From positions 1 to 26,077 of the IMG/VR virus record IMGVR_UViG_3300005265_000062: a DNA stretch of 26,077 bases. One strand, given 5' to 3'. The position numbers were made by a program, and so were the translations under genes. Every line of letters begins with the position of its first letter. The first letter of the stretch is position 1. The DNA is from a virus. Below the pieces are notes generated by a model that searched no databases, was not told the origin of the DNA, and was given only the letters and a program-made list of their open reading frames with translations. This document shows positions 153 through 17,665 of the stretch, one piece after another.

Positions 153-180
153 AAAATCCCGGGGGCTGGAGTAAGGGCGC

Positions 181-217
181 AAAAAACCTGTTCGCTCTCG
201 ATGCTTCGAGCGACAGG
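181..217 (-). terminator. Rho-independent terminator of the late/DGR transcription unit
   Basis: On the minus strand the arms CCTGTCGCTC (217-208) and GAGCGAACAGG (197-187) form a stem with one bulged base and a 10-nt loop, followed immediately by six T residues (186-181). It starts 21 bases past the stop codon of the reverse transcriptase and lies just inside the phage end, so it would stop late transcripts before they enter host DNA. Confidence 0.8.
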
Positions 218-238
218 TCATTTCACCCCTTATAAATC

Positions 239-1306
239 CTAGCAAATTGTGCTTTTTCTTGAAGCGACCTCCCTCCTCAACACAACCTCACCCAGAAGCT
301 TCTTCTTTAAGCGATATGAATTACAATGTCTCGCATGGCCAAGCCAGCTCTGAATGCTAGCGTTCACCCGGTCTAGGGAAATCTCACCCTCGCCATATAG
401 CCTTGCGTATTTTCTCAACTTCCGCCTCATATGTTTTTTGGATCTCACACGCAGGAGACGGTGTGTGGGCCAGATGCGGTATCCAAGAAAATCTATACCT
501 CGGCTTTTTACCGGGAATACCTGGGTTTTGCCATTAGGCTGTAGAAATAAACGGTCTGCCAGGAAGTCGACTATTTGCTTACGCAAATAATGTAAATACG
601 CCTTATTGGCCCCTAAAATTATAAAATCGTCCATATACCGCACATAAAACCGCTCACGCAGATCATATTTAATAAACTCATCAAGTTCATGAAGGTAGAT
701 ATTAGCAAAAAGCTGCGAAGTAAGGTTTCCGATAGGAATGCCCTTAGGTTGGCTATTGTTTACTCGCTTGGCCGAGTCAATTATTTCATCACAAAGCCAA
801 AGAGTATCCTGACAGGCAATGCGTTTGCGTAAAAGGGCCTTTAATGTGGCATGGTCTATACTCGGAAAATATTTTGCAATATCCCCCTTCAAACAATAAA
901 CTCGACCCCATCGCCTTTGTGCTCGACGCAAGAATGCCTGCGTGCGATCCGCCCCAGCATGAGTTCCCTTCCCAACGCGACACGCATACGAATCATGAAT
1001 AAATCGACACTCCCATACGGGCTCAATTACAGATACCAAAGCATGATGTATCACCCGGTCGCGGAAGGGTAGCGCTGCCACCAGCCGGGCCTTCGGTTCA
1101 TACACATAAAATGTGCGATACTCCCCCGTGCGGTAAATTTTCCAGATCAGCTCATTTTGAAGTTGTATCAGATTCTCCTCCAAGCGTTGCCGAAACCGCA
1201 GTATTTCACCTCGGTATCGTTTGCACCGCCGGGCTTTGAGATATCCTTGGTATAAAGTCTCAAAATCATATATCTTGGGAAAGAGATTGTTATATGTTTT
1301 AGCCAT
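239..1306 (-). CDS. DGR reverse transcriptase
   Basis: This 355-aa reverse transcriptase copies the TR RNA with errors at adenines and feeds the cDNA into the VR of the target gene. Visible motifs in order are GDIAKYFPSID (first catalytic Asp, about residue 142), the PIGNLTSQLFANIYL block (about 191-205) and the catalytic YMDD box (224-227), then FLGYRI in the thumb region. The IGNLTSQ form of motif 4, in place of the QGxxxSP of group II intron and retroviral enzymes, is typical of DGR reverse transcriptases. The length fits the family. The frame is open up to 1354, but the ATG at 1306 (MAKTYNNLF) fits the family N-terminus better; there is no strong ribosome binding site. It is the last gene before the terminator and phage end, and the TR lies immediately upstream. 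The identification is very secure. Confidence 0.96.
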   Translation of the reverse strand: MAKTYNNLFPKIYDFETLYQGYLKARRCKRYRGEILRFRQRLEENLIQLQNELIWKIYRTGEYRTFYVYEPKARLVAALPFRDRVIHHALVSVIEPVWECRFIHDSYACRVGKGTHAGADRTQAFLRRAQRRWGRVYCLKGDIAKYFPSIDHATLKALLRKRIACQDTLWLCDEIIDSAKRVNNSQPKGIPIGNLTSQLFANIYLHELDEFIKYDLRERFYVRYMDDFIILGANKAYLHYLRKQIVDFLADRLFLQPNGKTQVFPVKSRGIDFLGYRIWPTHRLLRVRSKKHMRRKLRKYARLYGEGEISLDRVNASIQSWLGHARHCNSYRLKKKLLGEVVLRREVASRKSTIC

Positions 1307-1455
1307 ATTAAAAATGCGGCGGGATGGAGGTTCGATGCCTACTACTCCATCCATGCCTGTTTAATTATTTCGGCGCTTGGCCGTGGATCTGGGGCCCTTT
1401 GTTTGTTGCACTGGACGATGCCCCGTGGGCGCACCGCCTTCTGGCTGTCATACAG

Positions 1456-1570
1456 AGCGGGGCGGAAGCCGATGTTCGTGTTCGTGTTCGAGCGCAGATT
1501 GTTGAGATTGAGAGCAAAAACGCCCGCCTGCACGCCATTGTTCCAATTCCCGCCACGGAGGGCCAACCGC
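1456..1570 (-). repeat. DGR template repeat (TR)
   Basis: This 115-nt non-coding copy of the target gene's 3' end lies in the 287-nt interval between avd and the reverse transcriptase (1307-1593). I see no credible protein gene in that interval. Read in the VR frame it would encode nine AAY (Asn) codons, the usual adenine-rich design that makes codons mutable without producing stops. It has 22 adenines on the minus strand, and 11 of them are substituted in the VR at 2004-2118; no other base differs. The TR RNA probably extends into flanking avd and RT sequence, as in Bordetella phage BPP-1, but its ends cannot be read here. Confidence 0.95.
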
Positions 1571-1593
1571 CACTTGCGCCTCAGACCCGAGCT

Positions 1594-1929
1594 TTATTTC
1601 CTTAAAGACTTAAACCATCCGCCTATCATTCTGCCTATTTCATCAATATGCCGACTCCAAATCTCGTACTTTTTGAAAGGAAGGAAGCCAAGCTCTTTAG
1701 ACAAGCGGACTTGTGACCTCAATAGGTCTAAATCTGCATCCGTATCCTGCATTGTCGTCTTTTTAAAATAACGCCTATTACATATGATGATATGGCGTAA
1801 AAGCCGCCACATAGTGTTTTTTATTTCAGCAGCCAGCGTAAATTTCTCAGATTTTGGGAATTGTTTTAGCGCTATGTAACCATAAGCGATCATATCTTCA
1901 CATTTCTGCCGGATTTTGAGGTCATCCAT
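1594..1929 (-). CDS. avd: DGR accessory variability determinant (Avd)
   Basis: This is a 111-aa, basic, all-helical protein. Avd forms a pentameric barrel of four-helix bundles that binds the reverse transcriptase and TR RNA and is needed for mutagenic cDNA synthesis. The sequence starts MDDLKIRQKCEDMIAYGY and carries the family's pattern of a KFTLAAEIK segment, an RLLRHIIICNRRY segment, and LGFLPFKKYEIWSRHIDEIGRM near the end. Length matches known Avd proteins (about 110-130 aa). The frame is open up to 2094 through the VR, but that extension is VR sequence in another frame, so the ATG at 1929 is chosen. It sits between VR and TR, the standard DGR position. Confidence 0.9.
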   Translation of the reverse strand: MDDLKIRQKCEDMIAYGYIALKQFPKSEKFTLAAEIKNTMWRLLRHIIICNRRYFKKTTMQDTDADLDLLRSQVRLSKELGFLPFKKYEIWSRHIDEIGRMIGGWFKSLRK

Positions 1930-1946
1930 CTCTTGTCTAATATTTA

Positions 1947-1968
1947 AGTGCCTGCTATCGCAGGCACT
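1947..1968 (-). promoter_or_regulatory. DGR target-recognition hairpin/cruciform downstream of VR
   Basis: A perfect 9-bp inverted repeat AGTGCCTGC / GCAGGCACT (1947-1955 and 1960-1968) encloses a 4-nt loop that reads GATA on the coding strand. Phage DGRs carry a DNA hairpin of this size just 3' of VR, with a GRNA tetraloop, which stimulates retrohoming. GATA fits that consensus. It lies 35 bases beyond the end of the VR homology, between the target stop codon and the avd start. Confidence 0.8.
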
Positions 1969-1991
1969 CCAGATTACCAGGAAATCAGATT

Positions 1992-3008
1992 TCAGAAAAC
2001 ATAAGCGGGGCGGAAGCCGATGCTCGTGTCCGGGCTCGAGCGCAGACTGCCGAGACTGAGAGCAAAAACGCCCGCCCGCACGCCATAGTGCCAATTCCCG
2101 CCACGGAGGGCCAACCGCTCATCAGCCGCGTTAAACCAGTAGCCATCGTACCCATATGTCCCGGTGCCTGTCGCATCTGACGACGCCGGTATCCCAAGTC
2201 CGGTCCAGTTATCGCCAGTGCGCAGAGTAAGAATCCGATGTCCCGACGTCATGCCACTCGTAATATTAGTTGCGGTGTCGATCCAGCTCGCCTCTGCGGT
2301 GCCGAAGTCATTGCCGGGGGCAGCCCCATCCTTGTCTGGCATAATTTTTGCGACACCGTCTACAATCTTGAGCCCATCGACCCACTCCCACACATTGCCA
2401 TTTAAATCAGCAATTCCATACGGTCCGTGGTCGTGATTCCAAGTATCCGGGCCACTGCCTGTGTATGTGCGGGCAGTTCCAGATACGCCTTTCACAATGC
2501 CCGTTTGCGTCGGTACACCACATTCGCGTGGCTCATCAACGTCTTCAAGGTAATGGTTATTTCCTCGCGGCATAGTGCCGTTTTCGCGGCACCACTCCGC
2601 GATTGCTGCCCACTCAGCATTGGTCATGAGGTGCCAGCCTGTCCCTTTATTCGTGCATCGGGTTTTCGAATTATCAAAATTGATTGAAGTCTTTGGGTCT
2701 TTGTAGGGAAGCGAATATGCCCGCGTGCCGTACTCAAAAGCCTGATACTTTCCAATATAGATACATGTTGCCAACCCTGATTCGCCAAATGCCTCGTCGC
2801 ACCGAAATGCAGGCATGGCCTCCCCATACTCGCCGGCAGGCGCACCAGCTGGCTTAGAGAGCCCCACATCCGTGAAATTGAATCGTGGAATGCGCACCAT
2901 CACGCTCGGCAAGTCAACATCATCAAAAATGACCGTATTGCGCCCGCCGCTCAATGCTTCGATGATATTCTTGTAATTATCCCAAAAGCTGTAATCTAGC
3001 AATCCCAT
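1992..3008 (-). CDS. DGR target protein, FGE/C-type-lectin-like tail tip ligand
   Basis: This 338-aa protein has a C-terminal part (from about residue 140) carrying formylglycine-generating-enzyme/C-type lectin hallmarks: GWHLMTNAEWAAIAEWC, then DLNGNVWEWVDG, then ALRGGNW and a GFRPA end. This is the fold used by most DGR targets to display variable residues. The last 39 residues are the VR. Ten positions differ from the TR-encoded version (307, 308, 311, 318, 320, 321, 325, 326, 327, 329). The N-terminal 100 or so residues are unrelated and probably anchor it to the tail. A strong AGGAGG precedes the ATG. It follows the tail hub and zinc-ribbon genes, so it is probably the receptor-binding protein. 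Target status is certain; the receptor role is inferred. Confidence 0.93.
   Translation of the reverse strand: MGLLDYSFWDNYKNIIEALSGGRNTVIFDDVDLPSVMVRIPRFNFTDVGLSKPAGAPAGEYGEAMPAFRCDEAFGESGLATCIYIGKYQAFEYGTRAYSLPYKDPKTSINFDNSKTRCTNKGTGWHLMTNAEWAAIAEWCRENGTMPRGNNHYLEDVDEPRECGVPTQTGIVKGVSGTARTYTGSGPDTWNHDHGPYGIADLNGNVWEWVDGLKIVDGVAKIMPDKDGAAPGNDFGTAEASWIDTATNITSGMTSGHRILTLRTGDNWTGLGIPASSDATGTGTYGYDGYWFNAADERLALRGGNWHYGVRAGVFALSLGSLRSSPDTSIGFRPAYVF
2004..2118 (-). repeat. DGR variable repeat (VR)
   Basis: This 115-nt gapless counterpart of the TR forms the 3' end of the target gene. It differs at 11 positions, all TR adenines: eight A-to-G, two A-to-C and one A-to-T on the coding strand. All changes alter amino acids. 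The final 19 bases on the coding strand (2022-2004, ending CGCCCCGCT) are identical to TR and GC-rich, matching the role of the IMH element where cDNA synthesis or integration initiates. Homology stops sharply at both ends. Confidence 0.95.
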
Positions 3009-15085: not shown

Positions 15086-16705
15086 CTATGTCACCACTGC
15101 CTTATACCCGCCACGATAATCGATCAGCGCCCCAGCATACTCGTGTCGGATCTTATGTCGCACTTTATCGGCTACAAAAACCTGCCCTGCCTGCGGAGAG
15201 TCCGCAACAAACATCTCAGGCTCCTCGCGCCCGTTTAAGTAGCCCATCTCCACGATATCCACCACATCTGCAGGCATAATCATACCCCAGTCTTTGGTAT
15301 CGACAAGAAGTGAGCACTGTTGCACCTTGACCTTGTCCTTGAGTGGATTTCGGGTCTTTGTCGTGAGATCATTAGAGGTATAATAGAACTCATCATATGC
15401 AACAGACTGAGCCGCATCGACCAGATCAATCGGGTGCAAGATCACCGGTTTCACGCTCGGGTCGTCCAGAAGTCCTATCCGCTCTCCGCTATCCTTTTCG
15501 GTTGCTTTCCCAAGTGCCTTGTATGCAGCAAGCGCAGTTGCAATTGAGAGATCCGATGAGCCTAAGTTGCCGTGCCCTGCAGTAAACCAGGCCGTTCCAT
15601 CCGAGCAGGTGGCATTGTTGATGAAGAAGTTTAGCACATACTTCGCGTGAGTCCTTCTTGCCGCTCGACCCAGCCTACTCACCAGCCTTTGGATCAGCGA
15701 GAGGTCATCGTTGATAATGGTTTTCCTTGAGATCGTGAGAATGTTGCCCTTCTGGCCGACCGTGTAGGTGCTTTCCTCATCGGTCACGGATGCAATTTCT
15801 TCATAATCTGCCGTCTCGGGATCCACGTCCGCAAGATCCGGGAAAAACCCTACCATCACGGCTTCTTGCTGCCTGAAATCCCGGACGGGCTTTTTGATGC
15901 TGAGCAGTATATTTTCTCCATAATCCACTGCCCGATATTCCCTGACGAGTCGGCGGCCCATTGTATTCCCCAGCACATATGAAAACGTGGCGCTTGTGAT
16001 ATCCATCTTTGCGCGGAGGTCCGGTGCCAGGTTTTTCCTCATAAATCTCCCCGTTACCTCATGGTCGCCCGTAAAGAATACGTACATCTCCCGGAGACTG
16101 CTGAACGCCGGAACCTGATCGTACTCGTGATAGTCCTGCACGCTGCGCATATCTTCGAAAAAGGGCCTCCGGTCGAGTCGCTCCAACCTTGCAAAAGCTT
16201 CCATATCTTCCTTGGTTAATCCGAACATCCGGTCAACCGCCATCTGGGCTCTCTCTAAGGTTCCCAGGCCCCCGCTGATGATGGAATGTGAGGGTATGCT
16301 TTCGTCATCCCTGTCCTGGGACTGCGCCATCTTGGCAATATAATCCTTTTCGTCGGCAATAGCCCTGTCCAGCTCTTCTTTCTGAAAGACCCTCCCGCTG
16401 AAGGTTGTCCTGATACGGTCTTTTGCCGCATCTGGCAAATCGCTGGCATCCAGCGCCTTGTTTAAGGCCATCTCGCAACGGAATTTCTCGAGATCCACTC
16501 TGGTTACCAGATCCTGGTTGTTTGTATCCCCGGGGGCTGCGCCATCTCCAGGGCCTTCGCCGTCCCCGCCCTGATCCCCTCCGGGCTCCATTGCCATGCG
16601 GGCGAGTGCAATCATCTCCTCATCGGTTACAGAGTCAAACTCCTTGCCTTTAAGGAGATCTGGCCTCGCCTTTGAAATCAATTCCCATAGCTGTTTCTTG
16701 TCCAT
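15086..16705 (-). CDS. Nested in-frame scaffold-capsid product from an internal start
   Basis: Inside the polyprotein an ATG at 16705 (MDKKQLWELISKARPDLL) is preceded by AAGGAGGAG with a 5-nt spacer, as good a ribosome binding site as any in the window. Initiation here would give a 539-aa scaffold-plus-capsid chain without the ChaB and protease parts, starting right at the predicted protease/scaffold border. Nested scaffold starts are known in lambda (C/Nu3) and Mu (I/Z). The site also encodes Lys-Lys-Glu-Glu, so chance similarity is possible, but its location argues for function. Expression in excess of the full-length chain would supply the many capsid subunits. Confidence 0.6.
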   Translation of the reverse strand: MDKKQLWELISKARPDLLKGKEFDSVTDEEMIALARMAMEPGGDQGGDGEGPGDGAAPGDTNNQDLVTRVDLEKFRCEMALNKALDASDLPDAAKDRIRTTFSGRVFQKEELDRAIADEKDYIAKMAQSQDRDDESIPSHSIISGGLGTLERAQMAVDRMFGLTKEDMEAFARLERLDRRPFFEDMRSVQDYHEYDQVPAFSSLREMYVFFTGDHEVTGRFMRKNLAPDLRAKMDITSATFSYVLGNTMGRRLVREYRAVDYGENILLSIKKPVRDFRQQEAVMVGFFPDLADVDPETADYEEIASVTDEESTYTVGQKGNILTISRKTIINDDLSLIQRLVSRLGRAARRTHAKYVLNFFINNATCSDGTAWFTAGHGNLGSSDLSIATALAAYKALGKATEKDSGERIGLLDDPSVKPVILHPIDLVDAAQSVAYDEFYYTSNDLTTKTRNPLKDKVKVQQCSLLVDTKDWGMIMPADVVDIVEMGYLNGREEPEMFVADSPQAGQVFVADKVRHKIRHEYAGALIDYRGGYKAVVT

Positions 16706-17665
16706 AATCTCCTCCTTTTTCTGGGCCGCTATAGCCCGGTTAAATCTTCCGCCCGCGGCGGGGCGGGTAACGATATCAACAGAATCCACCGCCAGGAACT
16801 TGACAAGCTCCATAACAGGTTTCCCGTTAATTTCAGCCTTTTTAGCGCGAACGGGTGCATCATAAGAAAGCCCATATGCCTTAGCGCCTTTGCTGATTGC
16901 ATCTTTTAGGTTTTTCCCAAGCCATTTGAATGAATCCATAAAATGAAGAACAGCTTTAAGTCCTTCACCTGCCACATAGCGCACGTTTTCCAGCCATCCC
17001 GCCTTGTTCTTGACGAGTAGGCTTTTTATGTCGAATAGAGCATCTGGCACATGCGTTGCCCCTCTTGTGGGCAATTCATAGATATTCACATCCACTCCCT
17101 CGAAAAGCCCTGCTGCCTCCCTCAGGGCATCCTCCGGCAGATACCAGCCATTCTTCGTAAACCCGGGCTCGCAAATAGTCACTTCCCATGCATTTCCCTC
17201 GGGATCCTGTGCATCCCCCAGCCGCAATCTCATTTCGATGCTGTCGTCATACTCGTTCTGCTGGCTTCTTGCTTCCACCCAGACCCTTTCCACTTCCATT
17301 GCGTCAGTACCGAATTGGACCTTACCTTCAAGAATTGAGTATGGAAGGCGGTAGTATTTCTTGGCTTTCTCGTAGATGATATACCCTCCATAGACGGAAT
17401 GCAGATCTGCCTCCGTGTCTCGCTCATCCAAGGCCTCCCAGAGCATGTCCCGAATTTCGTCCAGGCTCACGTCCGATTTGGCCCGCCAGATGCCGTCTTT
17501 GCCTTTCTCATATTTTGCCTTAATGGCCGCCCATGCCGCCTTTCGGGCCTTATCATCATCATTGCTGCCCGCCAGAACGGCATTAAACGTATCCACGCCG
17601 ATTTTAATGGCGCCTTTGGGCAAATTCTTTAGCCACTCTGGCGGCTTTTCTATTGTATACGGCAT
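15086..17665 (-). CDS. ChaB-protease-scaffold-major capsid polyprotein
   Basis: This 859-aa protein is preceded by AGGAGG. Residues 1-65 (EWLKNLPKGAIKIGVDTFNA, AAWAAIKAKYEKGKDGIW) are a ChaB-like domain. Residues about 160-310 (EGVDVNIYELPTRGATHVPD, KGAKAYGLSYDA, VDSVDIVTRPAAGG) resemble Mu gpI-type prohead proteases. Residues about 320-460 are acidic, Gly/Asp-rich and helical, as expected of scaffold. From about 470 to the end (RAQMAVDRMFGLTKEDMEAF, SRLGRAARRTHAKYVLNFF, AGHGNLG, RHKIRHEYAGALIDYRGGYKAVV) it resembles the Mu gpT-type major capsid protein. In Mu, protease/scaffold and capsid are separate genes; here they are one frame. Release of the capsid subunit presumably needs self-cleavage. 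Domain borders are approximate. Confidence 0.85.
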   Translation of the reverse strand: MPYTIEKPPEWLKNLPKGAIKIGVDTFNAVLAGSNDDDKARKAAWAAIKAKYEKGKDGIWRAKSDVSLDEIRDMLWEALDERDTEADLHSVYGGYIIYEKAKKYYRLPYSILEGKVQFGTDAMEVERVWVEARSQQNEYDDSIEMRLRLGDAQDPEGNAWEVTICEPGFTKNGWYLPEDALREAAGLFEGVDVNIYELPTRGATHVPDALFDIKSLLVKNKAGWLENVRYVAGEGLKAVLHFMDSFKWLGKNLKDAISKGAKAYGLSYDAPVRAKKAEINGKPVMELVKFLAVDSVDIVTRPAAGGRFNRAIAAQKKEEIMDKKQLWELISKARPDLLKGKEFDSVTDEEMIALARMAMEPGGDQGGDGEGPGDGAAPGDTNNQDLVTRVDLEKFRCEMALNKALDASDLPDAAKDRIRTTFSGRVFQKEELDRAIADEKDYIAKMAQSQDRDDESIPSHSIISGGLGTLERAQMAVDRMFGLTKEDMEAFARLERLDRRPFFEDMRSVQDYHEYDQVPAFSSLREMYVFFTGDHEVTGRFMRKNLAPDLRAKMDITSATFSYVLGNTMGRRLVREYRAVDYGENILLSIKKPVRDFRQQEAVMVGFFPDLADVDPETADYEEIASVTDEESTYTVGQKGNILTISRKTIINDDLSLIQRLVSRLGRAARRTHAKYVLNFFINNATCSDGTAWFTAGHGNLGSSDLSIATALAAYKALGKATEKDSGERIGLLDDPSVKPVILHPIDLVDAAQSVAYDEFYYTSNDLTTKTRNPLKDKVKVQQCSLLVDTKDWGMIMPADVVDIVEMGYLNGREEPEMFVADSPQAGQVFVADKVRHKIRHEYAGALIDYRGGYKAVVT

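Follow-up and report, generated by a model that had tools for sequence, protein, structure and literature searches.

The window analysed here, that is, the whole stretch of 26,077 nucleotides, carries at one of its ends, entirely on the minus strand, a cassette in which the genes and features follow each other in the order target gene, avd, template repeat (TR) and reverse transcriptase (RT) gene. The remainder of the window reads as the late region of a tailed phage (terminase, portal, protease-capsid fusion and tape measure), and the target gene is the last gene, located after the tail module. The window appears to be a fragment without the early region; the Mu transposase domain, PF09299, is absent from it and was present in two of the 14 records searched. 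The major capsid gene (15086-17665) is a long fusion, which matches prohead protease/capsid fusions and has a ChaB domain near its N-terminus.

The target gene (1992-3008, minus strand) codes for a variable protein of 338 amino acids with an FGE-sulfatase/C-type-lectin fold, an assignment to which Pfam, phrog, PDB and fold prediction all contributed. Indeed, the protein matches PF03781 (FGE-sulfatase, E 3e-6), phrog_2889 (E 3e-99) and the tail family phrog_5302 (E 1e-18), and its best solved relative by sequence is TaqVP (PDB 5vf4, E 1.6e-39). When its predicted model was compared with known folds, 5vf4 came first (E 1.3e-29), followed by the BPP-1 Mtd variants (1yu4, E 7e-4); the mean pLDDT of this model is 75, with residues 252-284 poorly modelled and the C-terminal blocks from residue 301 onwards ranging from 65 to 88. 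On the basis of gene position, predicted fold and the known system, the target is probably a tail-associated, receptor-binding protein.

The two proteins expected to act on this gene are both encoded nearby. The accessory protein Avd (1594-1929, minus strand, 111 amino acids) passes the curated cut-off of PF22296 (bAvd, E 2e-33), scores 125.6 bits against NF033474 (DivGenRetAVD, cut-off 80) and belongs with phrog_3206. The mechanical ORF start of avd, at 2094, lies inside the variable repeat and was rejected in favour of 1929. The DGR reverse transcriptase (239-1306, minus strand, 355 amino acids) retains intact YMDD and IGNLTSQ motifs, which are invariant in the alignment with its relatives. 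It matches PF00078 (E 1e-18) and phrog_1423 (E 1e-147), is 42% identical to the brt product of phage BPP-1, and by far its best solved relative is the 8ub7 set (E 9e-70), which we take to be the BPP-1 bRT. The alignment with relatives suggests that its translation more likely starts at 1306 (MAKTYNNL...) than at 1354, the start of the longest ORF.

The TR (1456-1570) and the variable repeat (VR, 2004-2118), both on the minus strand, are direct repeats 90% identical to each other, spaced by 548 nucleotides. The VR occupies the C-terminal end of the target gene, nine coding bases separating it from the stop codon. The two repeats match over 115 nucleotides without gaps, and the identity breaks off immediately outside them on both flanks. 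Read on the minus strand, i.e., in the sense of the target, the 11 mismatches all fall on TR adenines (eight A to G, two A to C and one A to T), of which the TR contains 22; the hypergeometric probability of this coincidence is 9.9e-10, and our realignment thus reproduced the adenine-only differences already listed in the preliminary description of this DNA. The excess of A-to-G changes (8 out of 11) lies within what the family usually shows (P about 0.1). At the 93 positions where the TR has a base other than adenine, the two repeats are identical, which implies recent homing. To our knowledge, adenine-specific mutagenic homing is the sole process able to yield an adenine-only TR/VR pattern, and this scar strongly supports the statement of the preliminary description that the element has fired at least once.

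In the target gene, ten codons are altered by the mismatches (307, 308, 311, 318, 320, 325, 326, 327 and 329 being listed, with 320 hit twice), and all the changes are nonsynonymous. The earlier remark that ten residues change and that no substitution is silent is thus true, but it does not hold as evidence of selection, since this property is built into the TR. Indeed, the 22 TR adenines all occupy the first or second codon position in the frame of the target and are spread over 13 codons (nine AAY, two ACG, one CAG and one ATC), so that the 66 single-base changes that these adenines can undergo are all nonsynonymous, and none leads to a stop codon. Since any mutation of a TR adenine alters the protein, the lack of silent substitutions adds nothing in favour of selection. 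Overall, the 13 codons allow about 9.8e12 protein variants. A second VR was sought in the window, and none was found.

The sites that might guide homing are also recognizable. The 3' end of the VR (2004-2019, minus strand), CGGCTTCCGCCCCGCT, is adenine-free, GC-rich and shared with the 3' end of the TR. It sits where the definition of the IMH places that element (PMC4372165), and we infer that it has an IMH-like function. No IMH/IMH* difference was seen within the repeat, and the TR and VR copies part directly after it. Beyond the VR, by 35 nucleotides, lies a DNA hairpin (1947-1968, minus strand), AGTGCCTGC-GATA-GCAGGCACT, with a perfect 9-bp stem, a GRNA-type loop and a folding z of -5.6. 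This hairpin agrees with the published consensus of phage DGR hairpins, which have GC-rich stems of 7-10 bp, GRNA loops and a distance of 4 to 34 bp from the VR (PMC3240598), the present distance falling at the edge of that range. Stems of at least 7 bp were detected in the 90 bases after the VR for 47 of the 107 VRs of our set, against three of the shuffled controls, and 44 of these 47 stems carry GRNA loops.

The spacer between the TR and the RT gene (1318-1457, minus strand) resembles the RT-14 RNA, matching Rfam RF02921 over its full length with 46.3 bits (E 2e-4), a score just below the gathering value of 48.1; this value is passed at the equivalent place in 11 of 18 relatives. Folded alone, the spacer is no better than its shuffles (z -0.6), so that the support for an RNA structure comes from the covariance match only. 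We lean, with some reserve, towards the idea that the Rfam RT-14 family represents the conserved template-RNA spacer found throughout a large group of DGRs from phages, the present element being a diverged member in which the structure has been kept; if true, this reading would link an RNA family to a mechanism. Downstream of the RT gene, a stem-loop followed by TTTTTT (180-219, minus strand, -17.9 kcal/mol, z -2.9) is a probable intrinsic terminator; it was absent from the output of a simple consensus terminator scan and is therefore to be taken as a reading of the sequence.

Scans of viral contigs returned 185 related RTs and 167 related targets, the best 80 of each being kept. Loci were counted only if at least 80% of their TR/VR mismatches fell on TR adenines, and more than 100 of the viral loci fetched in this way pass this criterion. 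In 106 loci, 1246 of the 2524 TR adenines have a different base in the VR (G in 607 cases, T in 351 and C in 288), and the other mismatches amount to 82, a figure to be read as a lower bound because the loci were selected for adenine bias. With 11 of its 22 TR adenines changed, the present element is average among them. Relatives were also used to follow VR variation: in the nine pairs having identical TRs, 124 of the 138 VR differences map to TR adenines. A sibling element (L006), the target of which is 75% identical to the present one, has a TR differing at 26 sites, all among the 93 non-adenine positions, with 22 out of 22 adenines unchanged (P 0.002); thus, the template adenines are conserved. 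A scan of the viral contigs for the exact TR-like pattern gave no match and thus did not reveal any very close sibling.

All these data find their best explanation in a complete BPP-1-type diversity-generating retroelement (DGR) of a tailed prophage, a reading to which we assign a probability of about 95%. The interval 239-3008 given in the preliminary description is right, and its completeness is borne out, since RT, Avd, TR and VR with adenine-only differences, IMH-like end and hairpin were each tested and are present. Its description as active and functional appears well founded and likely. According to the mechanism that we propose, the transcript of the cassette would carry the TR together with the structured RT-14-like spacer; the RT, with Avd, would reverse-transcribe the TR RNA, misreading the adenines, and the mutated cDNA would take the place of the VR in the target gene, at its 3' end, with the IMH-like stretch and the hairpin that follows it directing the exchange. 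The outcome would be a tail-associated protein with a C-type-lectin fold, having up to 13 variable residues and no stops. If the element is active, the phage could in this way vary the probable receptor-binding tip, and possibly its adsorption, over about 1e13 protein variants.

The DGR of the Bordetella phage BPP-1 has the gene order mtd, avd, TR and brt. The present element resembles it in gene order, in the adenine-specific TR/VR differences, in Avd and RT, in the IMH-like end, in the GRNA hairpin and in the C-type-lectin target, although the latter belongs to the TaqVP/FGE-like subtype and is not Mtd-like outside the VR domain. As for TaqVP, the target of a DGR from a Thermus aquaticus prophage, it has a C-terminal VR, AAY codons in the TR and an invariant end of seven residues interpreted as the IMH (PMC6328139); the two proteins are homologous over most of their length and share this plan, but their identity is about 30%, and hosts and inserts differ. 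The Hankyphage of Bacteroides, with a Mu-like transposase, harbors a DGR with repeats of 117 bp and adenine mismatches (PMC6199706), i.e., repeats close in size to the 115 nucleotides found here and the same kind of mismatch, whereas its host is different and its target has no similarity to characterised proteins. Hence, the element is of a known, common and well-described kind and, as one more member of it, causes little surprise; a large survey has reported more than 30,000 DGRs, three lineages of which occur mainly in phages and act on attachment proteins (PMC8144416). To this large set our analysis adds one well-preserved phage DGR, which is a clean example in that every part is present, stops are impossible and the template adenines are kept while other TR sites drift.

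A close parallel for the carrier as a whole is BalMu-1, a Mu-like phage of Bacillus with a transposase. Close to its right end, this phage has target, Avd, TR and RT arranged as they are here, and the order of the late genes in the window also resembles that of BalMu-1. The targets of the two are 45% identical and the RTs 44%, and 10 of the 11 TR/VR mismatches of BalMu-1 itself are at adenines. BalMu-1 copies 1 and 2 are identical across the stretch compared and are thus uninformative on activity. The two differ in that BalMu-1 encodes a holin and an endolysin beyond its RT gene and possesses a contractile (sheath) tail, whereas in the present element the RT gene is directly followed by the probable end of the phage. 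The carrier looks like a transposable-phage-like prophage with a DGR at one end, and positions 1-152 look like the right end of such a prophage inserted in a host gene, with the phage-host junction probably at about 105. A minus-strand frame covering positions 1-104 resembles, by reading, part of a response regulator, GYRVTTRTSPIDALELFRARPADFDLIITDQTMP. Adjoining it, within the region 1-152, the sequence TGTCGCAGAAT occurs twice, 22 bases apart.

A first alternative is that the DGR is dormant, i.e., that it was once active and its parts look intact, but homing has been lost, for instance because the prophage is a defective remnant. The window, which terminates in host-like sequence (1-104) and contains no early phage region, may indeed be a fragment or a remnant. 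Moreover, a close relative (L083, 7098-8756) has kept target and VR, but its avd is cut to 53 codons, and no TR and no RT were found in the sequence examined; it might represent either a DGR target left without the machinery or the outcome of a recombination that removed the end of the phage, and loss of the machinery thus does occur within the group. In the present element, however, none of the open frames or cis sites is damaged, and outside the adenines the TR and VR have stayed the same, as expected from recent homing, which makes dormancy rather unlikely. According to a second alternative, the similarity between the two repeats would be due to chance or to an ordinary duplication, the TR being a degenerate copy of the target gene's 3' end. 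Direct repeats of 90% identity might suggest this, but the confinement of all 11 differences to the adenines of one copy (P 1e-9) and the occurrence of the same bias, next to RT and Avd, in more than 100 relatives refute it, leaving it a probability close to nil. Similarly, an origin of the RT from a group II intron or a retron has next to no chance of being correct, given that its match to TIGR04416 (group II RT/maturase, E 7e-38) reaches 130.6 bits, far below the cut-off of 300, and that it has the IGNLTSQ motif, the 8ub7 set as best solved relative, and Avd and TR/VR at its side.

Some relatives of the element show peculiarities of their own. In L083, an unrelated gene, like that of a bacterial oxidoreductase, follows the shortened avd. 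The closest relative of the target (84%; L082, 5700-6016) has no avd within 300 bases after the VR, where a different reading frame seems to start. A further locus (L126, 6981-8260) contains two sets of adenine-biased repeats and possibly has more than one VR or TR. Finally, in L014, a group II intron domain (Rfam RF00029, 7060-7130) lies just past the DGR RT gene, on the opposite strand.
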